Part shown: positions 25,685 through 63,778 of the stretch, in pieces | Layout: the number at the start of each line of letters is the position of its first letter | How positions within the stretch are numbered: the stretch's first letter is position 1 | Origin: Prunella strophiata | Lineage: Eukaryota > Chordata > Aves > Passeriformes > Prunellidae | Assembly (NCBI GenBank): GCA_036583965.1 | Contig: JAZBQD010000015.1 | Location: 86,131,309-86,195,308 of the forward strand | Length of the DNA: 64,000 nucleotides | Direction of reading: 5' to 3' | Position numbers and translations under genes: made by a program | Notes under the pieces: model-generated | The model's database searches: none | The model's input: only the letters and a program-made list of their open reading frames with translations | What the model was told of the DNA's origin: nothing

Positions 25685-25813
25685 CTACTTCATGTAGGCC
25701 GCATGCCTTCTCTTGTTTTCTTTGGCCAGCTTGAAGACTCTGGTGTCTTCACTCTGGTGAATCACAAGTTCCCCAGGCAGAAAATTATGTTTGAAATCCT
25801 TGAGGACAGTTTC
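25685..25813 (-). CDS. Terminal coding exon D with stop codon
   Basis: The segment encodes 42 residues and a TAG stop in phase 0, following exon C directly. It begins ETVLKDFKHNFLPGELVI, continues HQSEDTRVFKLAKENKRRHA and ends AYMK. An in-frame TAA lies 18 nt upstream, so the acceptor must be close. Two AG positions preserve the frame: 25813 (...TTTAAAG|GAA, weak pyrimidine tract) and 25798 (...CTGTCCTCAAG|GAT), which would drop five residues. The basic, Lys/Arg-rich C-terminus is typical of a cytosolic tail end. The intron to exon C is under 1 kb. Acceptor choice is uncertain; the reading frame and stop are well supported by peptide character and phase. Confidence 0.72.
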   Translation of the reverse strand, partial: ETVLKDFKHNFLPGELVIHQSEDTRVFKLAKENKRRHAAYMK

Positions 25814-26772
25814 CTTTAAATTAAATTTTCTTTAAAAAGCCAAGTAGGGCAAAGACATTAAGAATAAAATCTTTAATGAAGAAAACAGCCTTGAACCATT
25901 AACCAAAGGAGCAGAAGCAACGTTTGCCTCATGCTGCGAAGATGTACTCAAACCTTCACCTTAGAAGTGCGCAGATGAAAACTGTGTTTCATCATCACTT
26001 GTGCCAGTTTTGGTTAAAAGATCTCTGTGATGATGCTCCCACTTCTTATCAGGGTAGGCAAGGTAATATTCTTTGACTCTACTTTCTCTTAAATGCCAAT
26101 CTCTTTTTTTTTAAGAGTCTCTCAACACAAGACCAAAGGCAAAAAGGAAATGTTCTTCTTCAAAGCACTTAGAACAAAAATGGCAAAGCAATGAACAAAA
26201 TGCAGCCCATGAAACAAGTAATGGGTGATACATCTCTTTAATAACATCCTGTATTGTATTTTAGTGCACAAGCTGCTGAAATGCTGACAACATCCAAGAT
26301 TCAATCTAAAACATACAAGATGCCAGTAGGTAATCTAACTGTGCCCTAGCTCTGTGTAACTGAGTACAAACTAAGTGAATGACCATACTCATAGTAATAG
26401 CTGCCTGTTAAACCTGCACAGTACTTACCTTGTATATTTATATATATATATAATTCCTGTACAGAATGACCTTATGTGGTTCTAAGTGATATATATTTAT
26501 AAATAATCTCTATGTGTGTAGTTTCAATGTATATCTTACATAATTGCCTTTAAATGGCTCTATAAACAATCTGAAATTGCTACTTTGCACTGCAAAAGCA
26601 TTAACTCATTGATTATACACTTCTGTTTAGGAGTGAGGTCTTCCTATGGCTTTCAGTGTGTATTTTGGGCAGGGTCAGGCACAGCCTATTTTCCTCTTTT
26701 GACTGTGACCTAACTCTGAAATGCACCCCTTTGCCTTCAAAATCTGGCAGCAAGGAGCCTGCTCGGACCTAC
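25814..26772 (-). other. Intron C-D (about 0.96 kb)
   Basis: This lies between exons C and D. It holds a short (TA)n tract at 26431-26453 and a donor-like AAGGTAAGT on the minus strand near 26431-26423 with no coding sequence attached. Nothing else was recognised. Confidence 0.65.
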
Positions 26773-26982
26773 CTCAATGATAGCCCCATCAGGCAGCCTG
26801 AGGAAGTGCCTGTAGAGCTCCTGCAAGCCGCTGAGGTGAACCGTGTAGACACAGACGTGAACAGTGGTGCTCCCTTCCCAGCTGGCTGCAGCGTCAGGGA
26901 TTTCACGCTGGTGCTGGAGGTCACAGCTGGAGACACCAGGCTGGCTGGCGTGGTCCTTCCAGATGTAATCAGACACTGCCAC
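26773..26982 (-). CDS. Internal coding exon C: middle of the cytosolic tail (210 nt, symmetric)
   Basis: The exon is exactly 210 nt (70 codons, phase 0-0). The acceptor is CTGTCTTTCACTAG|GTGGC and the donor GAG|GTAGGT. It is clearly more GC-rich than its AT-rich surroundings, and G or C dominates third codon positions. The peptide begins VAVSDYIWKDHASQPG and includes VHVCVYTVHLSGLQELYRHF, ending LRLPDGAIIE. The opposite strand is also open here (about 136 codons). The minus strand is preferred because it has a strong donor and acceptor at exact codon boundaries and its phase matches exons B and D. Being symmetric, this exon could be skipped without a frameshift. Four G-runs lie on the coding strand just upstream of the acceptor. 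Confidence 0.8.
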
Positions 26983-26996
26983 CTAGTGAAAGACAG

Positions 26997-27047
26997 CCCC
27001 CCCCGCCCCCCGGACACACGCACACACACAGAGGCCCCCCACCCCCC
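26997..27047. repeat. C-runs flanking a CA tract, just upstream of the exon C acceptor
   Basis: The plus strand has C-runs of 8, 6, 6 and 6 separated by short loops and a (CA)n stretch. On the coding (minus) strand these are four G-runs of at least six, starting 15 nt upstream of the acceptor at 26983. They meet the usual sequence definition of a G-quadruplex if the longer middle loop is allowed. Confidence 0.85.
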
Positions 27048-27779
27048 ACCAAAGGAACATATTTAATTAACTTCTGGCAAGAGCTTAACCGATTTAAAAT
27101 GATTTTACAATAAATCTGCAAAGCCTGTACCATATGCAGTGCTTGCACACAGTTCTCTACTACATATTTTTTTATGACATAGATCTAAATAGAGGAGATA
27201 GACAAATCCCCAGTGTATATTCTATAAAGTTAATTCTGCACAGATGAAGCTGTAATTGACTCCCGTATTAACCAAAAGTAGGGAGATCAAGCAGGGTAGG
27301 TTAAACAATAAAATGGCAATGCTGATTAAAAAAAAAAAAAAAAAAGCTTCCCAAGAATTTTGTGACCGAGTATTTGTATTTCTCTCTCTTTGAGAAGCCT
27401 TTGCTCCTGTACCCACAAGCACTTTTTAGTCTCTGATCTCTGTATTATATTAAAATAACCTTGTGCTGCTAACTGAATTGTAGATGAGGCAGAGTAAATT
27501 AGGTGTATTTTAGGGCATTGTGTAGAGCTAGTTTATTAACAGTTACCTAGCTTCCCAGTTTGTTCTAAACATGTTTGCTTTGGTAGGTTTTGTATCCCCC
27601 TACATCAGTCAGAATTTCCATTTAGCCTTTTTCATGTTAATTCTTTACACAGGCTGAGCAGAATTCAAGACTTCAGACAGATCATGGCACGAGGCTTAAG
27701 CACCCTTTATCCTTAACTAGAAATGATGATGAGAAGCATTATTTTTATACTTCCCCTGAAGTGCAAACATAAGCTTTTT

Positions 27780-28390
27780 AACCCTCACTTTTGCAAGACC
27801 TTTTCGTCATTCATTTTCTCCCATGAGACGCTACTCCTGTTTGTGGAAGGAAGGGATTGGTGATATTGCTACATCCTTACAATACATCAGCATGCTCACT
27901 CCTATTTAATGCAGACAAAATACCACTTTTGCTGGCCTAGCACGTGCTTTTTTCTTTCAAGAATGTGTATTAACTGGCAGAAATGATTGGAACTTACTCA
28001 CAAAGCTAGCTAAAGAAAAGCTCTCATTTAAGATAGGTACATCAAAACCTCTTCTGCATAGTCTTGCTTTTAATTTTTGCTGAAATGAAGAGGTCAGATT
28101 CTTACAAGAGACCGCAAAAACCAGATACAAATTTTTCCCCTCTCTTGGGAAAAGTTAGATTTAGCTCAGTTTGCTTGTGTTCCAGTTCACATTTCCTCAG
28201 CTGTTCTTACGCATTACGAGGAATCCCATAACTAGCACAGTGTGCCAATGCCACGATCCTGACGTGCACGCTGCTATTATCAGACACTGCCTTAGGAGAG
28301 GATTTGTTTTAGGTGAATTAAGAAAGCAAGAACACATAGAGGAAATTATCTCCAACTCTTTTCCAGGAATGACAGAACAATAGGATACTT
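27780..28390. promoter_or_regulatory. Candidate conserved non-coding element, or a cryptic plus-strand exon at 28201-28312
   Basis: The block keeps several CpGs, including an E-box CACGTG at 27941-27946 and a cluster at 28208-28270. On the plus strand, 28201-28312 has an acceptor (CACATTTCCTCAG|C) and a donor (TTTTAG|GTGAAT) around an open frame containing CQCHDPDVHAAIIRHCLRRG. It could be a separate or antisense exon, but it has no partner exon, so the regulatory reading is preferred. Confidence 0.28.
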
Positions 28391-29651
28391 CATTTTAGCA
28401 CCAGCTTCCATTTACATCAGCCCTAATAAATTTTTTTACATTTTAAAAAAAGGAAAGGTCATCTGAAATTTAAGGTAAAATAAAGAGAGTCTGAATTTTC
28501 CACACCAAAGTGTCTGAGGCTCAAAGGCTTTCATTCAGGACAACATATTATATATGAACATACAGCAGCCATAAGGACAAGACAAGGTCTGTATTTTCTT
28601 CAGTCTACCACACAAGACACATGCCTGCATAATACAGTGCTCCATAAGAATTAATGTGACCAGTGGTCTCAAGAAAGCAGGAAAGCAGCTTCCATTGGTA
28701 CAGTGTGAGCACAGAGGAAGCAGCTGCGAGAGCTGCCACACCACAGCCCCTGCAGTGGTTACCTTCCTCTCTCATCCCAGTGTCTCACTACCAGAACTTC
28801 TAATCTGTCCAATTCAAGAGCACCAAGGCTTTCCTGGCCTCAGTGTCTCCTCCCTGATCTATGGCTTCAGGAAACATAAATGGTTGAGAGACCCAGCTCA
28901 GAAACTTAGTCTACAGGAAACACAGCACAGCATGATTTCTGTCACAATCCTCCTTTTATGCTAGATGCATTTTTCCCTGCGTTGCTAGCTTCCTTTATTC
29001 AAAGTTTTCTTCCCTCCTGAATCAGTCCCATGCTTTCCCCTGCTTCTTGTCTGACCTTCATCTTATCTCACTTTCACTGAATCTGCTTGTTCTTCTCTTG
29101 TGTTTGTCCCTATCAGCTAGCAGGGGGCTTATCTACCATGTGTTTTGCAAGCCATGGATATGAAAACAACATTCTTCTTTGCAGCTCTGTTTTGCCTGTT
29201 TTAGCTGCGAGCTCTGGGGGCAAAAATATGCATTCTGTACTTGTCCAGCACAGGGGTGAGTATGGACCTTCCACTATTTTCACACAAATAAATTACCACT
29301 ATATTTTTTCAATCACTGCCAGATCTGAGTGTAATTTACAACACTCAGATGGTACTGTGAAGAAGCCAAAGCCATCTTACTCAAACCTTTGTGCCTGAAC
29401 TAACTCTTCGCCTTGACAGGGCAAAGACCTTCTTTCGAAGTTCTTGACTCTAAGTGCCATTCCCAGGACACCATGGGACCAGGTATGGCATCAGAACTCT
29501 CTGTCTTCCTCCCCAAGAGCAGACAGTTCTGCAGGATAGTGGAAGTAAACAAACCCATCTGATCTGTTGTCACATTTCAAGATCTGGTGAACTCCCTCTG
29601 AGGACATTGATGTGACTAGCCAAAAGAACATGAGAACATGATGATATTGTT

Positions 29652-29725
29652 CTGCATGTCCTCCTCCCATCCCTCCCTGCCCCCCCCCCTCCCCCCCCCA
29701 AAAAAAAAAAAAAAAAAAAAAAAAA
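29652..29725. repeat. Pyrimidine/C-run tract joined to a 26-nt A-run
   Basis: CTCCTCCC, CCCTCCC, then 10 C, T, 9 C (to 29699), directly followed by 26 A (29700-29725). The minus strand carries multiple G-runs able to form a G-quadruplex next to poly-T. Confidence 0.95.
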
Positions 29726-30479
29726 CCAAAAGCACAGACTGATCATCTGACAACTGAAAGAGAAAAGGCACTGCCAAAACTGATGGTGCTGTGGTGAGTT
29801 GCACAGCCTTGGTCTGGGGTAGGCACTAGAAAAGAAGGAAAGAGGACCCTTCACCGGAGTGTCACTCATTAACTCTTCTTCAAAGTCACCTGGTAGAGTG
29901 ACATCACCTGAAAGCAGACTCTTCAATATATGGAGGGGTATAACATTTGTATACCACTTCCAGGAAGGGGGAAGCAGCTCTGTTTGTGGCTGTGGATTTA
30001 AAGACCCCAGTGCAGAAGGACCTTTCCATTTCCTCCTTGCTAGCACCATCTGAAAGTATTTGGCAGACAGATGTCCACTGCCTTGAAACTCTCAAAACAC
30101 ATTTCTGTGAAGTGATAGGTCACTAGAGAGCTGCTGTGGCCTACATAACCTGAAGTAAGCTCCAAAAGTAAACTGTACTGTCATCTGAAATTTCTATCAT
30201 TAAGTTAATCAAAAATGTCCATTCATTTCTACAGGAGTACAATATGAGTTAATAAATCCACCGAGACAGGCTAGTCAAGAGACTGTGCATATAGGACATG
30301 TCAGAGAAACTGAAGTTAGCAATGATCTAGATTCACAAGGGCTGACAAGAAACCACAAAATGCCAGAGCAATGTACAGTAATCCTTAAATGAAATTCATC
30401 TTTCAGCAGAAAAACACATTAAGGATGGTAATTCAATGATAAAAGAGGCAGGCCAGAACAGGTTCAAATGCTGAATATT

Positions 30480-30680
30480 TCACAACATAACTTAATTAAA
30501 GCGGGACTGTGAGGCTGTTAATCGCTTTATAATAGTTCAGCTTGAAATGAGGTCTGATGTGCATGCCCTTATAGTTTATTTGTTTATAATATTATAATCA
30601 TAAAATGTTACATGGACCTAATGCAAATGTACAGTTTTCACTGGCCTTTATTATGTTGGCAGTTTTTTCTCCTTTTGGTC
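30480..30680. promoter_or_regulatory. Candidate conserved non-coding element
   Basis: Contains CTTAATTAAAGCGG, a CDX/HOX-like TTAATCGCTTTATAA stretch and a perfect octamer ATGCAAAT at 30621-30628, in non-repetitive AT-rich sequence. Inferred only. Confidence 0.3.
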
Positions 30681-31628
30681 CTCCTATTTTTGTGCAAGTA
30701 TGAGAAAGGAAGAACTGGGAGGAAGGGTCATGAATTTAGGTCAGATCAGATGATTCAGTAAGTCTCATGTGGGTTTAAGTCTTATTAATAATTTTAATAC
30801 ATTCTTCCTTGACAACAATTATTTCAATCACTGCGCCTTTAGCGTACACCGTGACGTAAAAATACAGGTTTTTGAGAGAGTGGAACATGTTCCTCCTACA
30901 AAAAAGGTAAATTATGTCAACCCCTTGGAAATTACAGTGCATAACCTAGAAAAAAGACAAAAATATATTTGTAAGTACAAATACAAATGTATTTTGTTGT
31001 ATAAATGTATTATGCCACACCAAGTGTAGAGAAATATGAAGCAGAACCCATTTTAAACACAAATATATTGATAAATGTATATTTATAAATATATTACACA
31101 ACTGAGGCACAGCCAAATAATATTATCAATATTTCCTAGGTCAGGGTACAGAAAATGCCATGCTAGTGTGTAAAGGTACTATGATGTTTTCTATTGTTTG
31201 ACAGCTTTTGTGAAAGAAGAAAGGAAAGAATATTTCCTCAGATTTTCTGAGCTGCAGTGAGAATGAGAGGAAGACTCACTTCTAGTATCTTAACAAAAAG
31301 ACATCAGCATGAAAAAGCTCTTTTATAAAGTTGAAAAATATACATGGGTGTCCAAACACTTGATTATGATTAGTACTGATTCTTAACTGTTTGCAGCAGC
31401 ATTATTATTAGTAATTTCATGTGAATCAATTCCAGGCTCATACATTGCAAAATGTATAAAAAAAACCTGTTTGAAAACAGCATTCAAAGAAAATGCATAA
31501 AATGAGTAAAATGGACCAAATCAACCAGTTGAGAATGGGTGGAACTGAACACTGGTCGTGACAAATAATTAGCAAAAGTTACAAGCTGTTAACTTTAGTC
31601 CAAAGGGCAAAAAAGTGTGGAAATGATA

Positions 31629-31644
31629 GGGGGGGGGAAAAAAA
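31629..31644. repeat. G9-A7 homopolymer junction
   Basis: Nine G are followed directly by seven A. Only this short tract is notable here. Confidence 0.9.
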
Positions 31645-34581
31645 GACATCAAAAGTCAAGGGTGCTGTATTTATTTCAACTTTCATAAACATGGTAAATG
31701 CATTTTCTGTGGTAAGAGTTGTAAATATGGGAATTACTGTCCTGGAGGCAATCTTTGTTAAGCCAGCGTAGCTTTACAATTAAAAAAACAAAAGCTGGCT
31801 AGTGCTAACCTCTGAGGGAAGCACAGCACCCCTCAAGCACTACAAACCCCATTTCTGACAAACTGTTACTTGCTGGCAACTCTGGTAAAAGAAGAATTTA
31901 CATGGAAATATCTGAAAGCATCTTTCCTGTCCATGTCAAAGGCACCTTGGTAGTGTGCAGGTTCCAGTGAGGCTGTCACTGGGCCTCGGTCGGAATTAGA
32001 TGTGGCAGTGGGGAGAGATTCCAAGCCACTGTAGGAAGGATGGAGCACTTTACGAGTCATGAAAATCAACTCAGTTTGAATAAATCGTGAAATTGGAGAA
32101 ATGGCAAGCAAAGGCACGAACAAGAAAAGCAATTAGGATTGCCAGAAATCATACCACCACGAGAAAGCCACACCAACACCCCTCATGTTTAACCCTTACA
32201 TGCACCAAGCACTCACACATGTTTCTGCTAGTGCAGTGTGCTTTGGTGGGGCAGCAAGCATGTGCTCTTGTTGCTGGGGTAATAACAAGGCACAGGAGTG
32301 TCTCAGGTTAGCAAAGGCCTTTGTGGGCTCCTGGTAACTCTGCAGAGAGATAACTCGTTTCTAGATCATCCTATTTATCAACATAATGGACCAGCATAAG
32401 GGACCAGCAGTATCCAGGAATTGTTTGTTTCAGTCAAATTATGAATGCCTGAAGCATTGTTGTTAGAGTCTTCCCTGATTTATTTAACAAACAGACATGG
32501 ACAGACTAAATGGTGAAAAAAGGCATATACAGAGAATAACCTCTTTGTAAATGACTAAGGAGAAATCCCAGAATAGATTTATGGAAAGCTGATTAGCACC
32601 ATAGCACTAGGAAACAGCAGTGGGTCTTTTCGTTTCTGATTTGCAATAGCATCCTATTTATGAATATGTCCAGTGAACAGCAATGCAGATCTTTTCTAGG
32701 GAATGATTCTCATCTCCTGCTTTTAGATATTACAAAGTTCAGCCACATATTCTGTAGCTACACTGCACACACTTCTTGTGTAGTCTGCTGTTCACCATCC
32801 CATTTTTTCAGATCTAAATCTTTTGTGGTTTTAAGTGTCCACACTTCAGTCAACCATTAAAAAAATAGCAAATGTAGAAATACTCTCTTCCAAACAATAA
32901 TAAATCTGGGGGGAAAAAAGTCATCTCAAGAATTAATTCAAGGAAAACTGATATTCAATGCAGCAAAAACCTTAGTGAGTAAAAATTAAAGGCCACAGCT
33001 TTCTTGCATTTCCTTGTGCATAGCAGTGTCTTTGTCCATTGATTTGCCCTAAGGAAAGGAGATAAAATACATTCCCATCCTACTCCAGAGAATCCTGCTA
33101 TATTCTGAGCCCAGAGTGAGTTTGGTTCAGATGGGCAAGAGAAATCTCTCTCCATGCCTCATTTCCCAAATTTTACAAGGGATGCTGGAATCAGTTACTT
33201 AAGAAAGCATCTTCAGTAACTTCAGACAGACAGGATTTTATATACAAAAGTGTTTAGGAAAAGTTATTTTCCCTATGGAAGTCAGGATTTTAATGCATAC
33301 AAGGGCATATCTGTGTAAATAAGAGTGTCTGCTATTCATTATCTGCTCATCAACATTTGTTATTCATTACTCATGTGTTTACAAATGTAATGCAGTCAGA
33401 AAGCAGAAATAATACTATATGACTTTGGTGACCAAAAATACACCAGAAACAACAAATAGTAAATAGATCCATGGAGCAGTTAATCTTATGGGATAAAGTT
33501 TGCCCACAGAAGACATTCTGTGAAAAATTTGTGAAAATAACCCTGACAGATCTGTAAGTAACAATGCAGTTCAAAACTAATATGTAAACAGAAAACAAAG
33601 GAGCTAAGTTTGTCAATTAAATTATTGGCAATGAGGATTTTATTTTTACTGTTTGGAACTGATTAAATGCAGAGAAAAGATAGTTAAAAGAAACAAGTCC
33701 GTGTTCACAGATTTCATTCAATTTGTCCAAGACCTTGTGAATTCAAGATGTGTGTCTGGGAATGAGACAGGCTTTTATTCACCTGTGACTGACATCAGAT
33801 GGACAGATCTTTTCCTGGCAGCTAAATAACATTTTTAAACCTGTATCATCACATGGACAGTAAATCAGCTGAGAACTTAAAATTAAAATGCATTGGACTA
33901 GTGGCTTCTAGTTGCATCTTCTTCAGCTTCAGAAAATTTCCTCCTGTGCAGGCAGTGGCATAATATATCCTTGGGCTAGTGTGGTTGAGCAATGGTGCTC
34001 TTGTAGAAGGTGCCTTTTAAATTTTAATTTCTATTTTCCTTTTTTTTAATTCAAACAATAGCAAAATTGCTATAAGGTTTTACTAAGTACCAAAATGTTC
34101 CTAGTTTCCCTATTTAGATCCAGTTTTATTTTGAAGCAGATGGAAGTAGGCTAGGAAAATGAAAGTGAAACAGAAAAGCAAATTTAAACACTTTTAGTAA
34201 AACATATGTGAACATCTGTGAAGGGTGGTTGCCCTCTTTTAGAAATACTGTAATTTTGCTCTGATCTTTCAGTAACCCTAATAAGTACACTCCAGCACAG
34301 ATGTTAATTATTAGCAAACATTCACCACAGAAGTACCTAGAATCTCTCACTCACACTGCAGCCCCATTGCTTCAGCACTGTAGGGACAGGTAGGAATGGG
34401 CTGCTTGCAGAACAAGGAGTTGGCAGCCTGTGTTGAGATCAGAGGACATTTATGTGGCTACTTGCTTTAGCTGCCCATAAATTATCTCATCTGATTTTCC
34501 AGATAATAACCAGTAATCAGATGTATTCTTGCAGTCATCACTGCAGAAATAGACCATGGAGGAAGAACTGAAAAAAAAGGT

Positions 34582-34615
34582 TTCACAAACACCTCCCTGG
34601 CAAGGTGTTTGTGAA
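34582..34615. repeat. Perfect 13-bp inverted repeat with 8-nt loop
   Basis: TTCACAAACACCT (34582-34594) pairs exactly with AGGTGTTTGTGAA (34603-34615). It is intronic and no gene is attached. Confidence 0.9.
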
Positions 34616-37600
34616 GGAGTAGTGGAAGGGCCTGACATGTTTTTGTAAGCTGTGGTGCTAAAGCAGATGCTGGTATCATTATGGAAAAGATGGGAAGAAA
34701 GAAAATTAAGATGGCAGAGGTTTGGGTATTCCTTTGTGATTAAGGTTGACATTCACCATTCTCATGTCATCCCCTCTGCCTTCTTCACCCCAAGGATGTT
34801 TTTTCTGCCTCCATAGGGCCAGCATCCCAATTGCAAGCTCATCAGAAACTAAACCCAAAGTGCCTCAATTACTAAGGTATTTCCTTGTCAATTTACTACT
34901 TCTTTTTCCTGTGCCAGGGTTTTATTTTTGACTCTTGAAAACCGTTTAACCATGCCTGGAATTGATGCTTCTCTAGAAATCTAGGAACGGAAATCCACTG
35001 TAGCAAGTAGAGACAAAGAGTTAAAGGCTCAGGGAAGTTTGCATGAGCTTTCAACAGGGTATGCAAACCCATTGGGTCTGCCACACTTGCAAAAGTAACT
35101 TGCAAGATCAGGCTGTCTCCCAAAGCTCCTCTGAGTGTACTCAGAGCTCCTCTGGGTGTATCAAGAGCCTCTCAGCAATGTCTTCTTCCCTGCTTCAGTT
35201 AAGAAACCAGATAGCAAGAATTCTTCTCACAATAGTATTTTCCACTTGTAGGACACTATTGCAAAAATGGCCCTTTTGTGGTATTTCAGCAGTTTTGTCT
35301 TCAGTTCAAGCAGGAACCATGAAATGTACAAAAAAAAAAAAATTACAAACAAAGCAAAAATTACTACTAGGAACCCTAAGAAATGGTTTATGGTACAGCT
35401 TAAAGTTTTGTGCAAAGGTGTGGCATGACTTTATGCATGCAAGAAATATTCTGCTTGCATTTGATTTTACCTTAATTAGTTTACTTTTTCTGAATTAAAA
35501 GTTACAGTCTGAGATATCCAGAAACAATTGTATTGTATTACTGAATTTGATGTGCTTGGTTTGTAGAAAAATGGTTTAGTCTAGTGTGACCAATTGTCTA
35601 TTATAATGAAGCTTATTATTAATGGAGTATACTCTTATATCCTTATTTTTTCCTTCTCGGAAGATAGCAGAGTTCAGCATCCGATAAACATGTAAATTGC
35701 ATTTTTCTTTTCACACAGGACACATTTCAACTTCTGAACCAGCAGTCAACAAAGATTCCCCCAGCTGCTAGGGAAAAAAAAAAAAAAAAAGTAAGTATTT
35801 GTGAAGAAAGGCATAATAAGATCAGAGGGAAGCCTGTCATAAAAATGCACATTGCATAATACATGATGGATCAGTTCTATTATTTAACTTTTGCATAGAT
35901 ATAACAATACAGAGATATGCTAACCATCATAGTCAGCATTAATTTACAGTGGGAAAAATAATTAGAATCTCACTTTTTCTGAAGAATGGAGTGAAAATGT
36001 AAACAATGCTTCCCTCCAGGCAAGTGCTTTATCAACTTGACAGGTGCATTTGAATTTCCATGGGTGGGGGACATAATAGGTTATTTATGTGTCATTTTAA
36101 TAGAAAGGCCCAACCATCAAGATGGACAGGAGACTTTATCAGTACTGCTGTTTGCAACTAATCCACCAATTTAATACCCCATGAAAATACCTGCAACAAA
36201 ACCTGGACATTTTTCTTTTCCACTCCATTATAGGCAAATCAATATGGGTGCTATTCATCTCAAATCTTTGGCTCAGCAGGTGCCCACTACACAGAGCTCC
36301 TCACAACACTGGTGCACTGGCACAGCCACATAAACATAGACACTTTGGCTCCTGGTGCCATCAGTGACTCCACAACAGGATCACAACAGTGCTCTTGGAT
36401 CACTAATTTGCCCCTACATAGAAGTAAGCAATTTAAAAAAATCTTTTTTCTAGGGCTCTTTTTTTTTTTTTTCTTGTTTTGGTTTGGTTTTGAGAAGAAA
36501 AAATCCAGCACAATTTTTTTTAAAGTTTCTGATTACTATAATTTTATCTGAAGTAGCCACTCACTAATTTTCACAGTGTATTCCTGCCTGGAGAATAGCC
36601 ACAAGCCAAAAAAACATTATACATCCCCTAGCTGTAATATGTTTCTTTACACAAATTTACCATGAAAAAGAAAGATGCCAAAATGTGTATTCCAGTCACA
36701 CCTTCTTGTGCATTAGCTCTGACAAAAGCTGCCTTTTTTTGTTCTGTGTAGGGCTGTGCCATTGAGTGACACATAGTCCCAGTGTGACCCAGGGTAAATT
36801 TGGTATCCATGCTCCAATTTCTTCTTCCTCCTCCCTCCTTGTTACTGTCATCTGTACAAGCACAGGTTCCCCCTGTACTTCTCTACACAGCTATTCCTGC
36901 CACATTTTTAACACACAGCATTGTACTGATAGCCCCCCAGTCCTTCACTGGTGTACGTGTATGCACAGTCAAAATCAGCCTGATCCACACCAGAAAAAAA
37001 GTATTTTCCATTAAGGAATCCTTAAAAAAACCCAAGCATTTTTGAGAGCTGAAGATTTCCATTATTGCAAGTCCATCCTCCTCTGTGTGCTAAAGTCCAG
37101 CTTGCAGATTCATGATCCACCGAGGTCTACATGGACTGGAAGACAGTCCCCAAGAAGCTTAAAAAGGTTTGGAAAATGTCTAAGGAGGACAGAGATAATG
37201 AGATCATCCACCATTCCCATGTCTACTCAGAAGTGTGCTCTACTTCTGCAGAGATAATTCTTTTCTAACTAAGGCAGGTATGGCTCCAGAGATGTTTCAA
37301 GCATGTAACTGGAAGTATCTTTACACCCCCTGGGTAATTCCTCAGACTAGCTACTCCTGAAACTTTTTGCAAAAGCAAGCAATTCATAAGGACATAAACT
37401 TGATTAAAACCAGACCTGGGACATTTCCTATGCTCAGTCTTTCAGTCTGCAAAGCTCATGAATCCCTGTGGTTAATTAGGAAATATTACTCATAGTAAGA
37501 TCCAGTTATAATAAAATGTATTTTGCCTGAACATAGCATCTTAAAAAGTTTCAGAAACAGTCATTCCCCCATTTTCCTCCCACAGCTTCTAGTTTGGTGA

Positions 37601-38373
37601 CCATGTTTGCTGGTAGGAGGACAATGCCACTTGTCCCACTTGCAGAGAAGGACTGCATACTGTCCTCTCTCCTGGGGGTCACTGAGGCTCTCACAGCAGT
37701 GAGGTTGCAGGCCAGATGAAATCCCCTGGGAGCAGTGTCAAGCAGTGTTTCTACTGGGACAAGGGAAGGGAGCCCTGGGAAAAGCACAGTCTGTGAGGGT
37801 ATAACTTGAGCCCTCAATCCACAACAGGGGGAGGTAATGCCTTGTAGTTCACTCATATATTACCACAAGAGGTATATCACAAGTTACAAGTGGTAAAGTG
37901 TGGAAAAGAAACCCAAATAAATTAAGTTAGTCTCAACTGGTATATTAAAAGGCAGCTAAGTCTGGGTAGAAGACCATAATAGCAAAGAGACAAAACTGCA
38001 GGATGCTGGGTTGGCAAACCAAACAGATCTGGAAGTCTAAATTTTAACAAAGTTTTATACCAGTATCTATTTTTTGCTCTGCTTGGATAGCAACTCTTTC
38101 CACAAATCATGTAAGGAATGCAAGCAGTTCACCATCCTCATTACGTCAGATAGTGGATACTGAGCAGGAAGATGACTGTTTACTCCCTAATGATTTTGCT
38201 TCAATTCTGATAGCCTAATACAGCACAGGTTTCTTATCCACTCACAGAACCAATGAAAGATGTTCTTGTTTTATACTAGATATTTGTTGCATAATGAAGA
38301 TATAAAAAAAGGTGAACATTGAAAATTACTTTGGTCCAAGTAAAGCTGAATGAGCTTATGCTACATGGAATAC

Positions 38374-38395
38374 AAAAAAAAAAAAAAAAAAAAAA
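38374..38395. repeat. Poly-A run, 22 nt
   Basis: Uninterrupted A-run inside the large intron. No attached SINE or LINE body was recognised. Confidence 0.95.
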
Positions 38396-41825: not shown

Positions 41826-41826
<1 letters not shown>

Positions 41827-49779: not shown

Positions 49780-50220
49780 CATATTTTCACTTGCAAACTT
49801 CAAGCCTGATGCTAATTAATCTCTGTGGAAAGGCTGTGTATGAATCAAATTATAATGTAAGTCAGATTATACAGGATGAGATGTATAACATACCCTGCCA
49901 CTGAGGAGAAACAAAATGGATTGCTTGCACAGAAATGACAAAAAACTCAAAGAGCTTGCTCTTCATTAGTGCACCGATCTGTACCAGCCGGCTGATGACA
50001 GATTCACCCCAACGGAGTGTTGCAAACCACCTTGGATTTTCAAAAGTTTGCCTGTGGTCACAAATTATCTAGATGCAAGGAGAAAAAACTATTTGACTGA
50101 GCAAACCTTGATGTGGCACTTGCAGAATTCTGTTGTGAAAACATCTTGAGGGCAATCAAGTGCCATTAGCACATGTCAATGAGGCTTCCCATGAATTACT
50201 ACAAAAATTACAGTTAAGTG
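49780..50220. promoter_or_regulatory. Candidate conserved non-coding element
   Basis: Within AT-rich DNA, 49970-50040 keeps a cluster of CpGs (ACCGAT, GCCGGCT, AACGG) and TGATGACAG. It is flanked by GCTAATTAAT and by CAATCAAGTGCCATTAGC, which contains an NKX-type CAAGTG and an ATTA core. No open frame covers it. Confidence 0.35.
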
Positions 50221-53074: not shown

Positions 53075-53099
53075 AAGTGAAGTGCCCTTCACTTCACTT
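53075..53099. repeat. 10-bp inverted repeat with 5-nt loop
   Basis: AAGTGAAGTG / CACTTCACTT. Intronic, about 350 bp from an enhancer-like block. Confidence 0.85.
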
Positions 53100-53419
53100 T
53101 ATCCACCATCCTATATGTGCAAGCAAGCTCCAAACTCCAGTGTTGGAGGAAGACCAGGACCATAACAAGGGACAAATTGCAGCAGCCTCTGGTGTGGTAC
53201 TGCCTGCCTTCATCAGCCTCCACCTGTGGTCCAGCAGCTTCACTGCAGCACAAACTGGAAGCTCATTAAGCCTCCTCTAAGACAAAATCAAAAGTTAACC
53301 CCCTTGTGCCAAATGAGTTAAAAGACTTGCTCTCCAGCAGCCCTTGCAATGCTGCCACATCCAACATCAGTTTCCTCTCCTGCCAGTGCTGATTCCACTA
53401 GCAAGGGCAGAATTTTGCC

Positions 53420-53720
53420 CTCAACTATTCACAAGTAATTAATGCATTATTGAACAGGAATAAATAGATAGCAATTAAATAACAAGTATTAATGACTTAT
53501 TTATTAACATATTAATAGTTGGCCTGAGAGTAATAAATGCAAATTAGTGTAAAGTGGTACCAAAAATTGTGTCGATAATAGGCCCTGAAGTAATCTTGTG
53601 TGTTCAAGATAATTACAAATATATTTTCCTTTCAAAAATCTACTGCCGGGTAATTTTTTATGGTTTGCTATAATATCATTTTAAAATTAGAAAATTAGCC
53701 CTAGTCTCATTAAAATAATT
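53420..53720. promoter_or_regulatory. Candidate conserved non-coding element (intronic enhancer-like)
   Basis: The block is AT-rich, not low-complexity, and dense in TAAT/ATTA homeodomain cores. It has a perfect octamer ATGCAAAT (53537-53544) and GTCGATAATA (53571-53580), which recurs at 54840-54849. Retained CpGs (GTCGAT, GCCGGG) in AT-rich DNA hint at constraint. The function is inferred; no alignment was possible. Confidence 0.35.
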
Positions 53721-54131
53721 TTGCAGTGCATCAGGCTTTATTTCAAGTGTAAGATTCACATTATCTTCTTGCCTACAGACCTTGCATTTTTTTTTTCCCT
53801 GAAAACCTCCTTATGTGCCAATATTTTGGGCCTGTGCTTGGTATGCAGTTTTGTTTCAGCTTACTACTTGCACAACTTTTCTCATCAGTTAGTATTACTA
53901 CATAAAAAGTCCCACTGCAAGCAGGGGTGGTACTTTGAGAGCTAAGTCCAGCAAAAATCTCTAAGGGCCATACTTATTCCTTTTTATTCCTGCTTATAGC
54001 AATTAACCTGATAAATAGTGCAGAGGCTTTAGACATGACCAAACTGATGCACACCTAACAGCCTGATCACAACAGACCCCACTTAAAAGACCATCTCTGG
54101 TCAGCTGTTCCACTAGAAATACTTCCCCCGT

Positions 54132-54167
54132 CTTTTTTTTTTTTTTTTTCTTTCTTTTCTTTTTTAA
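54132..54167. repeat. T-rich tract
   Basis: A run of about 17 T is followed by CTTTCTTTTCTTTTTT. Confidence 0.9.
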
Positions 54168-54779
54168 TTCTTATTTGTTTAGACAAAAGAAAACCCCAGC
54201 TCATACCTTGGCTCTAAAGTATTAGTTAACAATGGAAAAGCAATTACTTGGTGAGGACAGAAAGACATTGCCACTTTTATCAGTTCTAGAAAGAAAAGGA
54301 AATTCTTGGCTAAAATCCAGGGTCCTGCCCTCATCACTGATCTGCTAACAATAGTAGATTAAAATATTCCAGTCTGCCACCGGTCCTGATTTTAGCAATT
54401 CTAGAATCTGACACACATTTAACACGTGATTGTCTCTAATAAAAGATCAGCAAACATTCAGCTCTGCCTCCATGTTTGTAACAGGAATGGAGGAATGGGG
54501 GCCCACGGCTTCCTCCTAGCACTGGTGCACAGAACGCTGCTTCAGCACATGTTTGTTTCTAGAAATGTTTCTGCCTGCCTCTGTAGGTGGCATTTTTCCT
54601 TCTTTGCAGCTTTCCTCATTAAAGGCATTGTAAATGGCTTTTTCCAGAATAATCAAGGGCCTTTCTGTGAGGTACAGGGCTATGGTGGCTCTCCCTGCAC
54701 AGTGCCTTCCAAACCACTACATAAATGTGATTGTGGCCATGTAATCTGTGTACCTGGAAATAGAATTCGTTTTGTTGCT

Positions 54780-55060
54780 AATGAAGGTCCTACGGCACAA
54801 ATTTATTAAAGGTATACTTTTCCGTGGGATAATAATTGGGTCGATAATATTAAACTCATAGGCTCATTATTTAATTGCAAGGGCAGATTATGAATACAGC
54901 TTCTAAAATGTATTTTAATGAAAAACACTACATCCTGACCTAATCATATCAACCTTATGCTATCTAATTAAGGATGCAAAAAATCATTAGAGTTGCAAAA
55001 TATTAGTTCCAGCTCCATCAGGCTGTTAGCTGCCCCTTCATGAATATATATATTTTTTTA
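54780..55060. promoter_or_regulatory. Candidate conserved non-coding element
   Basis: AT-rich sequence with many homeodomain cores (ATAATAATTG, TTTAATTGC, CTAATTAAGG), a second GTCGATAATA (54840-54849) and isolated CpGs (TCCGTG, TACGG). Its start overlaps the end of a 127-codon plus-strand open frame that has no splice or start support. Confidence 0.35.
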
Positions 55061-55089
55061 CTCTATGATAAATAGTTAATGAGGTAAAA

Positions 55090-55480
55090 ATGACAAAATT
55101 TGCATGTAGGCAAATTAGTTTAATAGACTGATGTCTTCCTGGTCTACAGAAAGTGACCTTTTTCCTATCAAAAGAAAGACTGAAAATGCTTTGAAATTAT
55201 GGCATGGATGTCATTCCACAAATGACAAATCACTCCTCTGAACAATATAAAAATTATAAAATGCAATAACCTTAAATTCTCATCATATTGTAAATGTGTC
55301 CTCTGCTGCTGCATTTATCAATTTAATAAAAGGAAATTAAGCATATTATAAAATACCCATTTATGGGGCAATTTTTAATCCAGCGAATAAAAATGAGAAG
55401 CTCATGGTTAATAGCAAGAAAATATTGCAAAAATGTAGACCTATTTTTTCCAAAAGGTTTGACTGACTATTTACTTGAAT
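55090..55480. promoter_or_regulatory. Candidate conserved non-coding element
   Basis: AT-rich, non-repetitive sequence with a TTTAATCCAGCGAATAAA-type stretch and several ATTA/TTAAT cores, adjacent to the block at 54780-55060. The texture is that of vertebrate developmental enhancers. Inference only. Confidence 0.3.
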
Positions 55481-58357
55481 GACCTCCATTTAAAATATAT
55501 TTTTTATATGGAGTGATGTAAGATATGGCAGTCTCATGCTTCCTTTTATAAAAATTGTTCACAGTTAATTTCGTATTTTATTTAAAAATTAACACATTAA
55601 TAATGCACGCAATAAGACCTAGTGATGTGTCTTCCATACTGATTACTTTGTACAATTAGACATACAAAAAGGAAGGGACAAGATAAATACCTTATGCAAA
55701 TCTATGGCAGAAAAAAGGGTCTTTCAGTATCTGCAATGCCTAGGAGCATAAAAAGACCTGCAAATACAGCTCCCACTCTTGCAGGGAGATGCTCCATGTG
55801 GAGAATATATTTGTAGAATGGAGCAAGTTTTTATTGCAAAACTAGAGATGCAAAGAGCTAACAACACTTCCTTTGATGGTTCCCTTTTTCATCAAAATAA
55901 TACCAAAAAAAAAAAAAAAAAAGGAAGAGAGGGGGAAGATTTTGATTATTTAAGACGGGTTCTTTTTTCATAGTATTTGTGTTTTGAACCCATAATTCAG
56001 GAGTTTTGAACACTAGTCTCCACTCACAAATTTTCCCCATTGTGAGGCAGATCCTGTGACCACGGAAGTAGATGGTAGAGGTCATCTCTAGAGATGCCAG
56101 TGATGCAAATTCCTTTTCTCTTTCCACATTACTCATATCTTCTTATGCCATATAGTCTGCACCAGCATGTGCCCCAGAGAACAGGAATGTTTAACACTGT
56201 CACAGCCTAGCTTTTGGTTAGGGATGATGTAAAGTAAAAGGCATGAAATTCATGTAGATGTAGACAGAATAGGAACCAGGGACTTTAATAAAGACAAAAC
56301 TGTGCATCACTTTGCTCTGTTGAATGAAATGTGTCCTGCTACCTGTGAGGCATTGGGATTCTTCCCTCTATTCCAACTGCATCCTCTGAGGTGCTGGATC
56401 TAGCTGAGGCTGGGTCCTATTTTAAAGGATCTCAGACTAAGATTTCACATTTCAATGTGGCCTTTCATGCATGGCTGCATACTGGGAGCACAGCTAGGCA
56501 CTTACACATTTCTATAGCTAAGGGTCATGCCTTTCAGTGTTCTGTCCCTTGAATTATGTCTTACTGCAGCAGTGGACAACCCATTCAGGTTTCCTCCATT
56601 CAGGTACAGACTACCTGTCTGTATTCTCTGTACACAGAGAAGTAATTTTTCCTTTTCTTTCCATTCTTTTCCACTTTACCCCCACACTTCTTCCTTTCCT
56701 TCCATCTTTTTTTTTTTTTTCCTTATCCAGCCCTTTATGTTCTGCTGCAAGAAATTGTATGCTGGAAATATCATTCTAAATTTATTCAGTACTTATAAAT
56801 GCAGTTATATGCAGTTTCCTCATCTGCCACTTTTTTCAAATGCCATTGGTGGTCCTGGCATGTAAAACTAGGTCCACTACAAGTACTCTTTGTTTGACCT
56901 TACTTAACTTGTAACAAAGATAATAGAAACCAATTGGCAGTGGTTATACTTTAACTTGTTGCAGAAAGTTTTGAAGTGCAAAAAAAAAAAAAAATACTTT
57001 ACTTACTGGAAAAGGCAAAATAAGTTCTATTTCTACAAAAAGCAGGAATGTCTGAGGCAGGTGGAAGCACATTCACTCTTTCAAACCCTTTCCCTCCCCT
57101 CTGCTGAAATGCCATGTGCTGCTCTACACTTTCCCACAAAATTTAAGCTTACTGAGTATCTGCTTTTTCATTCAGTTTTTCCTTTCAGGGTCCAAACTGT
57201 CATCACAGGGGAAAAAAAAAAAGCGGAAAATAATTACAGCTGTGGCAGATGTTTATAACAGTGACAACTGAGGCTATATATTTATATAAACTGCTGATCT
57301 TTCAGAGGTAGTTATAGAGATTTGAAAAACCTGCAGACCCTAATCTTAAGTCCCTTGTTTCAGAGGGTTAGAAAAGAAAAACAAAACAACTCATATATGC
57401 TTAAGAGGACTAATTTCCTTCCTATCAGGAATCTGTTCTTTTTTGCATTGAAGCAGGAGAGTTACCAAACAAAGCATTGTACACAGAGGCAATCACAGAA
57501 ATACAAATCAAAGTGATGGGCACTTTACCAACTGTGTAAGAGCTGGTTTGCATATTAGTCCTATGGGAATTAATAACACTGATACAAAGCTAGAAGAAAG
57601 GAGGGAAGGAAGATAATGCTCCTCAGAGACTACTGACCATGTTACTTCTTCTATTTTCAATTCTCTGAAAGCAATTATGACCAGAAGCCTCATCTGTGGA
57701 TGGCATTCCCACCACTGGGCCCTTTGCAAACACAGAATGTATCTCCTATACAACACAGCTTAAAGTCTTTATATGGGACTAGAGGCTAGGGGCTTAATGG
57801 AAAAGAAAGAGGAATTATTTTGATAACCAAAGCAGAGTATTTTCCCTGCAAATTCCCAGCCTAGCCCACTCTTCTGGGCAATCCTGGAGGAAAAGGGCCA
57901 GGGAGAAGAGCATGGCTCTCATCTCTGACTGACCAAACTCACACCCCCTTCTCAGAGCAGCCACACCTTGCCTCTTAAGGAATTAATTCTACTTGTTCAT
58001 GGAAATACTCAGTTTGCTGAGCTGGCTGAGAAATTATCTTGGATGATACTGATATTTAAACCAGTAGGAAGTTTCTAAGAGCCAGTCAAGAACCATCAGA
58101 CGGCACAGATAATTTTTGACATCAGTGATGCCTCTAAGCCTTTGGTTACTAAGCAGATTGTAACCCCTCAGGATGTTCAGGCAATGCACATGCAATGTCA
58201 TAAAATTCTTCTGAACCTGCTGCTTCTCAGCTTCTCCATTCAATGAAACACCCTAAGAATAATTTTCTAATATCTAGATTCTTTTGAATAATACTAAGAA
58301 ATACAAAGCATTAATTTGGACCACAGACTCTTTCTGGAGACTCTCTTCACCACTCAC

Positions 58358-58517
58358 CATTCGTCTTTCACCATTGATTCCTCTCCACTGCTCAGCCCTC
58401 TTCATAATGTAGCTCAGCTCCTGACTGGAAATCTCCAAATCCAGTGGAACAAAGAATGCACCTTCCTCACCATGAATACGTCGAAATACATCCAACAGCC
58501 AACCTTCGCTATGTAAC
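58358..58517 (-). CDS. Internal coding exon B: start of the cytosolic tail
   Basis: The exon is 160 nt, with acceptor TTTCTATCTTTAG|G and a strong donor ATG|GTGAGT. Its first base completes an Arg codon begun in exon A; 53 codons follow, ending in phase 0. The peptide starts LHSEGWLLDVFRRIHGEEGA, continues FFVPLDLEISSQELSYIMKR and ends AEQWRGINGERRM. It is rich in charged and aromatic residues, has no low complexity and shows no transmembrane segment. The pattern looks like a folded cytosolic domain starting just after the membrane helix. The open frame runs past the donor into the intron, so an unspliced reading would misplace the exon end. I know of no named domain with this pattern. Confidence 0.84.
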
Positions 58518-58567
58518 CTAAAGATAGAAATTACATATTTGGCTCATCTTTGAAAAGACTCTCAATG

Positions 58568-58587
58568 AAAAAAAAAAAAAAAAAAAA
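58568..58587. repeat. Poly-A run, 20 nt
   Basis: Located 50 bp upstream, in gene orientation, of the exon B acceptor. On the transcribed strand it is a T-run and may extend the pyrimidine context of that intron end. Confidence 0.9.
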
Positions 58588-60539
58588 TCATTCTTTGGTA
58601 GATTTATGTTTTGGTTTTTCCTTCATGACTATGGTCTCTGCCCATGAGTAAGAAGTTCTCCAACATCTCCTCCCCAGCCCTCTGGAGAATTTACAGTACC
58701 TGAATCAAATCACATAAATGTAAGCAGCAATTTAATTTAATTTTTACAGATATTGGCTTCCCAAAAAGATTCTGATCTTCCTTCCCTTCAGAAATGTCTA
58801 ATGTCTGTCCTTAGCACAGGGCTGGGTAACTAGTTCCAGTAGCATGGTTAGACATGAATGGAAGTCCTGCTGTGCCAGAGTTCAATAATGGGCAAACCAC
58901 ATCATATAGAAGGGAACCAGTCACCCTTTTGTTCAACCCCAAGCCTGAAGCCTATACAATCTAAACTTCTCTTGATGTTAGAAAAGTTCATTTCATTTGT
59001 TGGCTTTGTTTTTCTATGACATTTCTGTTCTGTGGTAAGGAATTGACTAAGCACTACACAGTAAAATTTTCTACCACAAGAAAGGCTTGCTGTGTGGCAT
59101 TTCTTGATGTAGGTGAAACCAAGAAATATTGTGGGGCTTTTGGAAAAGCCTGGTGTCACATTTTTAGCCTAAAATGAACTTGAAAACATCAAAACACTGC
59201 TGTTTGATTCAAATGCATCTGGTTCAATTAATCTCTTTCTCATTCTACTTTTATTCCAAAAACAAGGATTCAGAAAATAGAAATCAGAAAATCTGGAATC
59301 TGAGTTTTGGATATTGAACAGAGGTCTTTTCTTTTGTACCCTTTTCTGAGATAATACTTTACTCCAATTCAGCAGTTTCTTGGTTCCAATTTCAATATTT
59401 TCATCCTTCCCATAAACTGGCTGGGTGATCATGAGAAGTGCATGGATTGCTGTGGCACTGCAACCAACAAAATGCCTGGATTTCTGTGGGGCTGTTTAGG
59501 TCCTTCATTTCTTGGCAGGTGGGAGATGAAGCAGAGGCATAACTCCTTAGGCCCTCTGAATTCTTAGCCTTCTCATATACAGCAGCACCAGTGACAGTTC
59601 TTGTGGCTGGTCCTTATCCCTGGGTCTTGTGCTGGCCTGTAGGTGGTGAACAATGTATGTGTGTGTGCCTGGCAGAGGCAGAAGTTGTTGAGCTACACCA
59701 GAATGAAGTTCACACTGACATCAGCTCTACATCATACCTTACAGTGCCCACAGAAAGTGCAGAGCAGCACACTCAATAAGTTAGCTGCTTAGTACAATTT
59801 TGCCCACAACTGAGATTTAGTGTGGAACAGAAATAAGGAGATGCACCAACAGACAATTTTTCAACTTGATCTCGGGAGGAGCTTTAGCTCTCTCTTCAAA
59901 GGGGAATGTGTACCTCAGGGTCAAGGACCATATCCAAGAGTTTCTGTGATGAAGTAGCTATTCTGATCCCAAAATCTGGCAGCCTGACTCAACATCAGAT
60001 TAGGAATTTATATCTCAGGCTTTGCTGCAAAGGTTCTCTCTGTACTTTTTTCCCCACCCTTCTTTTTTAAAACATTCCTTTTTGAAGCTGTAGTAAATTT
60101 GCTGTAGTTTCAAGATGCCATTCTGGGATTCTCTTATCAAAAGGGGAAAGCAGGTGGAAGATCATCTAATCAAGATGTAGGTAGTCTGGGAATATAAACA
60201 AAATGGCTATCAAGAAATAATAGAAAATGTGCTAAAGTGTGTAATACTAATCAGTGCTAAAGCAGAGCAGAATACTAAAGTAGCTTAGAGCATACTACAG
60301 AAGAGATTATTTTTTATAAATAACTAGTACCCTCTATGTAATAGTAAACTCCACAGTATCTTTAAATAAATTTTTTTTCTCTTAATCTCTGGATCTACAT
60401 CAGATGTTCTTTCGATACAAGAGATATATTTTTGGAAGAACTGACTCATAATTTAGAATTGTGTTTGGTTGAAAAACTAGCAATTAAGCTGGTGGAATTT
60501 CTGACCTTCTGTTCATGTTGAAGCAATATTATTCCATGG

Positions 60540-60790
60540 TGTTTGTGTTTGACATTCCAGGTCAGCAGTTTAAATTGTTTGCCACTTGTCTTGCTAAACA
60601 AGAGAAAGACCTTGCCATTTATTTAAGCTTACTTAATGCAACATTCTTATTTCAAATTAAGTAAAATTTAATGCAGTTAAATTACTGTCTATTTGCTGCC
60701 ATAAACATTTTCTATATGAAGATTTTAAGCACATGGTTATAAACAATATAATTAACTTTGAATTAATTAAGAATCATGAAGCCTGTCTTT
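60540..60790. promoter_or_regulatory. Possible conserved non-coding element in intron A-B
   Basis: Contains NKX-like CCACTTG, a 9-bp inverted pair TTACTTAAT/ATTAAGTAA (60629-60637 and 60656-60664) and clustered TTAATTA sites. AT-rich but not simple sequence. Confidence 0.22.
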
Positions 60791-63614
60791 CAGCTTTGTT
60801 CCTTTTGTCCAAAAGTATTCAGCCTGCTCCTGTTACCTGCTTTAATTTCTTTTCTTTGGCATAAAGACTAATAAAACACTTCTTATACCTTAACATACCT
60901 TGTTATAAGCATGAGAGTAGTTATTTTTATTGCTAATATAACAGAAAGAACAAAACACAGATCATGTTTTCTAGACATATGAGAACCACTATAACAGTCT
61001 ACAGGTTCATTTATTTACCTATCAGAAAGAACAGAATACATTGAAATTATTTCCTACCAAGAGTCTGATTAAAAAATGGGCTTTTCAAAGAATTACACAA
61101 ACCAAAAATTAAAGGGTAGTTTTAGTGGTTTAAAACAATTTATTGCATCTTAGCTTGAGCCTTTCTCATCCTTTTTTGGAAAACCACCATTGAAAAGACA
61201 AAGCCAGTTTTGCTATTAACACTGAAAAATGTAAATTTCTGAAGCTTTTCCCTGAAAAATATTTCAATACCAGGAAATTCAGATGCTTTCCACCAGAAAC
61301 ATTTCGTTCAGATGGGACTGCATTTTCTCACAGTGCAGAAAACATTTCACCAACAAACTCCTGTCTGTTTCTAATATCTAGTAGAATTAGAAAGAAGGAA
61401 TTACAACCAGTGTCTCTTCATTGTTCCTAAAAGTAATTAGAATATCTCTCCATGCTAGTTGTACTACAGACTCCCAGGACAAACAAGGGGAACCAGATTT
61501 ATTGAGATATTTTGGTTTATAAAGACACAAATAAACGCCTACTGCTACTTAGCCCCTGCCCCTTATTTCATTAGCTTCCTGGCTGTTCACAAATGCTGCC
61601 ATGAAGTTTTCTAGCTGTGGCAGAAACAGACACTTCCCCTGCTTGCTTTGGTGGTCTTGTGGGCTCAGTGTTCTTATCCCTTATTTTACACACTGTCAAA
61701 CCCTTCAGTTTAATGGCCAACTGCTGAGTAATTCCAACAAACAGCACCTCCTCCTCCATCCAACAGCCACAGTCTCCCTTGTGGATTGGAGTCTTCAGGC
61801 ACAGAAGGTATCCCTCAATATTTATATTGGTTTACCTTGCAAGAGAAAAATGTGGTGGATGCTTATTTAAAAATATATGTTTTCTGTGCTGAGCAACATT
61901 CCACTTGAATATATTTGAGATATGGCATCTCAGAAATATTCTCACCAAGGGATGCTACTGCCCTGGCAGTAATACTATTCTCTCTTGAAAACAAATGCTG
62001 TTATATCCACATTCAGGAAACAGTGTTATGAAATGCAGAGATGTTGTCCTTAAAAGCATTTTAAAAGGTTTTAATTCTATCATTATTTGGCTGAAAATGT
62101 GCTGCTCAAGAGTCCTACCTAAGTCCAAGTTTCCCATGGTGTTGGCTGTAGATACTCAAGGAAAAGAAAGCTGATACAATTGCAGAAGCTCATTATATAA
62201 CTTTACTTTGCACAGACTCCAGTATTCAAAATGTTTCCTTTTGTTATCAAGCAAAGAACTTCAAAGACCTTATGCACTGTAACAGATTTTGTTATCTTCC
62301 CTTTGCTTTTGTATTTTGCTATGAATCATTTTTAAAATGTGTTGTGCTAAGACAACTTTTTTTCCCCCTAGTAACATTATTCCCCCACCCCTTTATTGGA
62401 AAACATTACGGGAAAATTGATCCAGAAGGAAAGATACCTTTGATGATCTTGCACCTGTTCCCCAGACAATGAAGATGTTGGTAATATTCTCATAAAAACC
62501 TGCCTTACAAATGTTTTAATTTAAATTAATTTTCCTGAGTAATAAACGACAGCAGCTAAAACTTATGAAGCTATTCAAAACTATTAAGTCAATGATTAAG
62601 AAGGCATTAACGTCTCAAAAACTAATTAACTAGACTGCCAGTACATTGGAGTTGTGTACAGCTCCCAGGAACGTAGGAGCTCTGAAATACTTTGCAGAAA
62701 TTTAGATTGCCATTTATCTTTTTCTGCCTGCTGCAACAGAGTTTGTTGAAGGGGGACTGAGGGAGGATACAGTAAGGTGGAGGGTGTATGCTGAGATTTT
62801 CTGTTCTTACACCTGCCTGCATCTTGCCTTTGCACGTGGCTTTTTATTGGTGTGTGCCAATGTTCATCACTGGGTGAATCAAGGGCCAGCACAAAATTCC
62901 TACTGCATTATGAACAACCCACTTAAAAAAAAATATACACTTTTCATTCAATATATTAGACAATCTATGTAAATAATTTTCAGTGTCCCACACCTGTCCT
63001 GCACAGCTCCTGGTGTCTACTAGAAAGCTGTCAAGAAAGGTAGTTGGCCAAATGTCATGAGGAACTGAGTTTAGAAAATTAGCTAATGTCATAGAAATAT
63101 TATTTGAATTAAAACTTGTCATGATGACTCAGTCACAAATCAAAAATCCTGTATCATCAAAAAGCTGTAAGGCTCTGAAAGCCACTGCAGATTCAGAGAT
63201 TTTGCTCTTCATATCATACGTAGCTTTCTGAAATTTTTCCTATTTCTCACAAAACCCCTTCTTGTAAGGCTAAAGACAACATCTTCCAAAGTACCTAAAT
63301 GAAAGGTACGCATACTTTACAGCTTAAGCCCTTTCATAGGCACAATTGCCTGAAGCCAAAGAAGCAGAGGCTTCTAGAATCTATGAAAAATCATTATATC
63401 AGTTGAGGAAATAAGTGACGCCGTCTCTGACTTGCTGTGCCCATCAATCCCAGTGCATTAAAGTTAAGCAGGAGCAAACCCCTCCTTGATTATCTGCACT
63501 TTTGATCTCTGGGTGTGTGACACTGATACATCTTTTCTGATGTCACTTTATTTTATCTAACAGAAGAGTCACAAACCTAAGTTCCTAAGGGAATAATGAG
63601 ATTAAGAGACATAC

Positions 63615-63778
63615 CTCAAAAAATACAGGTACAATGTTGCTGATGAGATCATGAACAGGATGGTATAAAGCATCACTGTGATTAAGGCTCCAGGAACTCC
63701 TGACTCCCCTGCTCTTAGAAACACCCAGGAGAGTTTTGCAGCATCAGCAATGGGTTTCTCTACGCTGTTCCCAAATCG
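63615..63778 (-). CDS. Internal coding exon A: lumenal segment plus transmembrane helix
   Basis: The exon is 164 nt. The acceptor follows a T-rich tract ending in CATGACAG, and the donor is GAG|GTATGT. Only one of the three forward frames is open throughout; the other two hit stops early. It encodes 54 residues plus two bases, starting RFGNSVEKPIADAAK and running into SWVFLRAGESGVPGA. A strongly hydrophobic stretch, LITVMLYTILFMISSATLY, follows and then LYFLR. That stretch is long enough for one membrane-spanning helix. Basic residues right after it (FLR, then FRR in the next exon) suggest a cytosolic C-terminal side by the positive-inside rule. The exon ends in phase 2, as the next exon requires. 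The upstream exon is outside the window. The protein is unidentified; exon status is well supported by the splice sites and phase. Confidence 0.82.

Follow-up and report, generated by a model that had tools for sequence, protein, structure and literature searches.

Which gene do four short minus-strand coding blocks in the genome of Prunella strophiata belong to, and what might its protein do? The stretch that we analyzed (the window) is 64,000 nucleotides long and corresponds to C60:86131309-86195308 of the bird's own genome (1.05 Gb); coordinates below are window positions unless they are given as genome positions. A preliminary description, made from the sequence alone, had joined the blocks into a four-exon gene in an apparent gene desert. 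We find, with near certainty, that the window holds the 3' end of bird OFCC1 (also known as ojoplano, opo, or MRDS1). We also think it likely that OFCC1 is a C2 protein with a dead membrane core, similar to that of site-2 proteases, and that it acts as a pseudoprotease on endocytic traffic.

The window holds the 3' end of OFCC1

The coding segments that we discuss are as follows:

63615..63778, minus strand: exon A of OFCC1, which completes the loop that follows the third core helix and also encodes the last membrane helix and the invariant D and K of 'IADAAK'
58358..58517, minus strand: exon B of OFCC1, with the start of the C-terminal domain (GEEGAFFVPLDLEISSQEL ... GERRM)
26773..26982, minus strand: exon C of OFCC1, with the strand-rich C-terminal domain (VAVSDYIWKDH ... 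LRLPDGAIIE)
25685..25813, minus strand: block D, a possible alternative last exon in birds, from predicted bird models
16609..16750, minus strand: exon E, the usual second-last exon of OFCC1, from homologues and matches in the bird's own genome, in phase with exon C
15631..15659, minus strand: exon F, the usual last coding exon of OFCC1, which ends in GNCTVSDKS and a stop

The structure proposed earlier was computed correctly. The four blocks (A, 63778-63615; B, 58517-58358; C, 26982-26773; D, 25813-25685) can be spliced in frame at GT/AG borders; the introns described as 5.1, 31.4, and 0.96 kb are 5,097, 31,375, and 959 bases; and the joined peptide has 220 residues followed by a stop. This peptide has no Pfam match and no sequence match in PDB, which explains why it could not be assigned to a family.

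With the joined peptide as query, a search of about 5.8 billion proteins yielded 48 with E values up to 10. The top match, a predicted protein of the starling, carries the name "orofacial cleft 1 candidate gene 1 protein" and covers the full query at 87% identity (E = 7.5e-127). Two wider searches found 151 and 180 proteins, and we took the best 120 of each, for a homologue set of 244 in total. We compared these homologues to the window with tblastn (E up to 0.01). Exon A is matched by 225 of the 244, exon B by 235, and exon C by 195, while block D is matched by just 5, so the conservation across species that had been expected of all four blocks holds for three of them. All of exons A, B, and C are matched by 176 of the 244 homologues, named OFCC1 models included; as judged by sequence similarity, chance is excluded for these blocks. 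The medaka opo protein (P0232) is 43%, 60%, and 46% identical to exons A, B, and C, respectively.

We also mapped a full-length manakin OFCC1 protein (P0203) onto the bird's own genome. All 17 matches are collinear and lie on the minus strand of C60, from residue 23 (genome position 86300679) to residue 989 (86147921), a distance of 152.8 kb. Exon A corresponds to residues 758-822 of P0203, with splice borders present, and exons B, C, and E correspond to residues 815-885, 871-943, and 939-989. Once exon F is added, the gene spans at least 153.7 kb. Thus, instead of a four-exon gene in a gene desert, the window contains the 3' end of a gene of about 153 kb, with 17 matched stretches and a tiny last exon. 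The Pfam model for OFCC1 (PF15680) matches P0203 at residues 5-112, that is, at the N-terminus only.

The usual 3' end of the gene consists of exons E and F, which the preliminary description missed. Exon E is matched by 28 of the homologues (a tblastn block at about 16,610-16,760), has a strong acceptor before it, and is in phase with exon C. A strict search pattern did not locate exon F, but a looser one, based on how four other bird proteins end, did, with 8 of 9 positions matching (the next-best site has 5 of 9); it is in phase with exon E and has an AG directly before it. Exons A, B, C, E, and F have open frames, compatible phases, and GT/AG borders, and together they encode an intact C-terminus of 234 residues plus a stop. 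Passerines supply the closest named models: this C-terminus is 89.3% identical to the model from Junco, 86.0% to that from Pseudopipra, and 84.7% to that from Pithys (229-235 columns). An unnamed protein of 127 residues (P0038), from a contig of 1,499 bases, spans C, E, and F, and its first residue is the Met that ends exon B. Because the same three exons cover 11 kb in the window, the contig points to spliced RNA or to a processed copy, unless its species has very short introns here.

Among the matches listed in the wider protein searches are relatives from invertebrates and a choanoflagellate; the OFCC1 gene is older than vertebrates. The earlier suggestion of a poorly described vertebrate membrane protein was therefore right about the membrane, about the conserved C-terminal part, and about the lack of a Pfam family, but the gene has a name and extends beyond vertebrates.

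Five OFCC1 relatives from the source jgi (P0023, P0025, P0101, P0133, and P0190) lie on contigs of 1.2 to 17.9 kb and are 40-43% identical to the bird protein where a value is given. They are probably from invertebrate or protist DNA. A gene neighbour of OFCC1 is TFAP2A.

The membrane core probably resembles site-2 proteases

Predicted models of the full-length protein begin with a mostly disordered N-terminal region that carries the Pfam OFCC1 motif; a C2 domain and a membrane core follow, and a small, strand-rich domain forms the C-terminus. Of this, the window covers what comes after D112, namely the C-terminal domain, the last membrane helix, and the D and K of 'IADAAK', both of them invariant; the exons for the HYxxQ and GP motifs discussed below are upstream of the window. 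The single membrane helix of the preliminary description is this last helix, but the protein has several. In our searches, no Pfam family matched the C-terminal part, and the most widely conserved region of OFCC1 is likewise in none, which may be why many records are labelled "uncharacterized protein." Profile searches of PDB each produced a single match that we ascribe to chance (E = 0.59 and 0.51). Of 49 retrieved proteins that begin as those of vertebrates usually do, 40 contain NPAF near that start. NPxF motifs bind Numb-type PTB domains.

When the predicted structure of the membrane part was searched with Foldseek, site-2 proteases ranked first, second, and fourth. We then compared sequence profiles. 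An alignment of 100 OFCC1 cores against 82 proteins of peptidase family M50 (MjS2P, SpoIVFB, and the 80 best of 435 confirmed loci) scored 23.5 (P = 0.0065, probability 5.8%) and aligned H15-Y16-x-x-Q19 with HExxH and G61-P62 with GP. In the reverse direction, the score was 21.5 (P = 0.016). With match columns only, the score was 22.6, which was reached by 2 of 400 column shuffles that preserve hydropathy (mean 13.9, highest 25.0). Control alignments from the same genomes, which are smaller than the M50 set (rhomboid, 22 sequences; CPBP, 25; VTT, 29; PAP2, 26), scored 12.5-14.3 in both directions. A subset of 45 OFCC1 sequences presumed to be non-vertebrate, some of them unnamed, scored 23.9 and 24.1 against M50 and 11.3-14.5 against the controls.

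The residues involved are strongly conserved: H15, Y16, Q19, G61, P62, D112, D128, and K131 are identical in all 100 OFCC1 sequences. The spacing from the first H to GP is 46 residues in 99 of the 100, compared to 44 in MjS2P, 47 in SpoIVFB, and 46 in 80 of the 98 members of a broader M50 set. An alignment of 32 OFCC1 proteins to SpoIVFB and MjS2P covered 137 columns (P = 0.0079, probability 5%) and placed D112 on the metal-binding Asp; a second alignment also places D112 on the Asp of the LDG motif, which is the third metal ligand in M50, at low confidence. We had considered D128, which is invariant as well, as the metal ligand, but the alignment to SpoIVFB and MjS2P weakens that choice. HExxH is absent from OFCC1: all 100 aligned sequences have HYxxQ instead, as do all 174 proteins that share the RLYxH context. 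The core is probably of the site-2-protease kind; it is probably also inactive, because Tyr takes the place of the general base Glu throughout the alignment. We do not assign OFCC1 to M50, because it lacks HExxH and does not match the Pfam model.

Even with the gene identified as OFCC1, its membrane core might have no relation to site-2 proteases, and the likeness might come from a helix arrangement that is widespread and from a few motifs shared by chance. Several observations point this way and weigh against a shared fold. The statistics are weak: the best Foldseek E value is 0.018 (none is below 0.001), middling Z scores are common for helical bundles, and the profile probability is about 6%. 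The Pfam M50 model (PF02163) did not match any of 5 full-length proteins (E up to 1) or 32 members (E up to 10). A second structure search had the C2 domain alone at the top, so the structural match rests on one model. With the broader M50 set of 98 sequences, the scores dropped to 21.9 and 18.2 (P = 0.011 and 0.051), and those of the non-vertebrate subset were 19.7 and 22.6 (P = 0.026 and 0.0098). Also, GPxxN occurs in 35 of the 45 non-vertebrate OFCC1 sequences but is uncommon in our M50 set: at this position 7 of 98 have N and 79 have S, so the motif adds little to the likeness. However, the structure and sequence comparisons concur on the family, the profile runs concur on the register, and the control families score just 11.3-14.5. 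We consider an unrelated core to be unlikely, at perhaps a third of the weight that we give to kinship with site-2 proteases.

A proposed function

If the core does descend from a site-2 protease, how might OFCC1 work? The core would have the M50 fold, probably by descent, and because it carries an invariant HYxxQ where the proteases have their catalytic HExxH, it would be unable to cut by the known mechanism. The C2 domain would place the protein at the membrane. The dead active-site cleft could then hold a membrane client, and binding would change the endocytic traffic of the client. The pseudoprotease trait that is visible in the sequence of OFCC1 is the loss of catalytic residues, and nothing further; we regard the pseudoprotease reading as likely but unproven.

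According to review accounts, the product of medaka opo is a transmembrane protein that sits at the basal feet of retinal precursors and opposes integrin endocytosis mediated by Numb/Numbl, the cargo being integrin beta-1, and the gene is required for folding of the eye cup. The same accounts ascribe no biochemical activity to the protein. A pseudoprotease that holds clients would fit the role of medaka Opo versus Numb/Numbl.

With a little less assurance, we favor a broader view: ojoplano/OFCC1 would be an ancient pseudoprotease of animals and choanoflagellates, whose HYxxQ site-2-protease core is tethered by C2, binds membrane clients (integrins, for example), and regulates how they are endocytosed, much as iRhoms do. 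We found no open-licence paper that pairs ofcc1 with a site-2 protease, and three that mention ojoplano together with a protease. A dead site-2-protease core would provide a first idea of how the eye-shaping gene ojoplano/OFCC1 works, with a mechanism that can be tested with few residues (H, Y, Q, and D). OFCC1 would also be, to our knowledge, the first site-2 pseudoprotease described in animals.

Block D and the integrity of the gene

Predicted models from the starling, the falcon, and the kiwi end in block D, with 38, 34, and 33 of 42 residues identical (the kiwi is represented by two records from one species), and a parrot model contains a broken piece of it. Block D has a single copy within the window. 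As a comparison, we used tails from seven other sequences that read through after exon B: these have 0.39-0.55 identity, and a 12-residue tail from the starling has 0.92. The comparison is rough because the tails come from species other than those of the D models, and the support for D consists of predicted models. On this evidence, block D seems to be more conserved than most intron sequence here. Might it be the normal C-terminus in this bird, with A-B-C-D as the main transcript? The bird models that end in D and their high identity would suggest so. However, the 28 homologues that continue to E include the passerines P0055, P0203, and P0224; no homologue among the 244 has both D and E; and the pyrimidine tract is weak before D but strong before E and F. 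We therefore consider this very improbable. Instead, block D may be a real alternative ending in birds that is rarer than E-F.

Other predicted models extend beyond exon borders. The budgerigar model P0062 reads past exon C into the C-D intron (26006-26086, minus strand; 59% match over 27 residues). The starling model P0001 lengthens exon B by 12 residues (58319-58357, minus strand), and several bird models end in read-through after exon B; this extension is either an alternative donor or a prediction artefact. The cuckoo model P0002 runs past exon E (14061-14195, minus strand; 47% match over 37 residues), which is likely a prediction artefact or 3' untranslated region.

Finally, decay of the gene in this bird, as in humans, where OFCC1 has been termed a pseudogene (PMC7555810), is the least credible alternative: of the 17 stretches of this genome that match P0203, 9 contain one stop each, 7 of them upstream of the window, but the two stops within the window fall in the intron flanks of A and C, and the exons of the usual 3' end are intact and retain 84.7-89.3% identity to three passerine models. 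The human pseudogene does count against an essential role everywhere, as does a mouse knockout reported to have no eye or head defect (PMC3248446).

Other features of the window

A SNORD36-like Rfam match (27718-27793, plus strand) lies in the large intron, antisense to the gene. It scores 32.8 bits, compared to a gathering score of 30 (E = 0.24), and may be due to chance or be a retrocopy. An AGAAA tandem array of 36.6 copies is at 22847-23027. Ten of the window's longer open frames had no Pfam match above the curated cut-off.

Comparison with known systems

OFCC1 probably resembles the site-2 proteases of M50 (SpoIVFB, RseP, and MjS2P) in its predicted core fold, in a strand pair after the first core helix, and in the register of H, GP, and an Asp. 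It differs from them in having HYxxQ for HExxH, in lacking a Pfam M50 match, and in having a C2 domain in front. In plants, EGY3 is likewise a relative of site-2 proteases without HExxH and is said to stabilise other proteins (PMC10978774), but it is a chloroplast protein, and we liken it to OFCC1 by description, not by sequence. The iRhoms are dead intramembrane proteases that are described as acting on the traffic of membrane proteins (PMC3149277, PMC7554728); this is an analogy only, as the rhomboid profile does not match OFCC1 (scores of 13.8-13.9). The bird gene itself agrees with OFCC1/ojoplano in its homology over exons A-C, in the order of exons in its own genome, and in the N-terminal PF15680 stretch, and it shows no notable difference besides the possible avian ending in block D.
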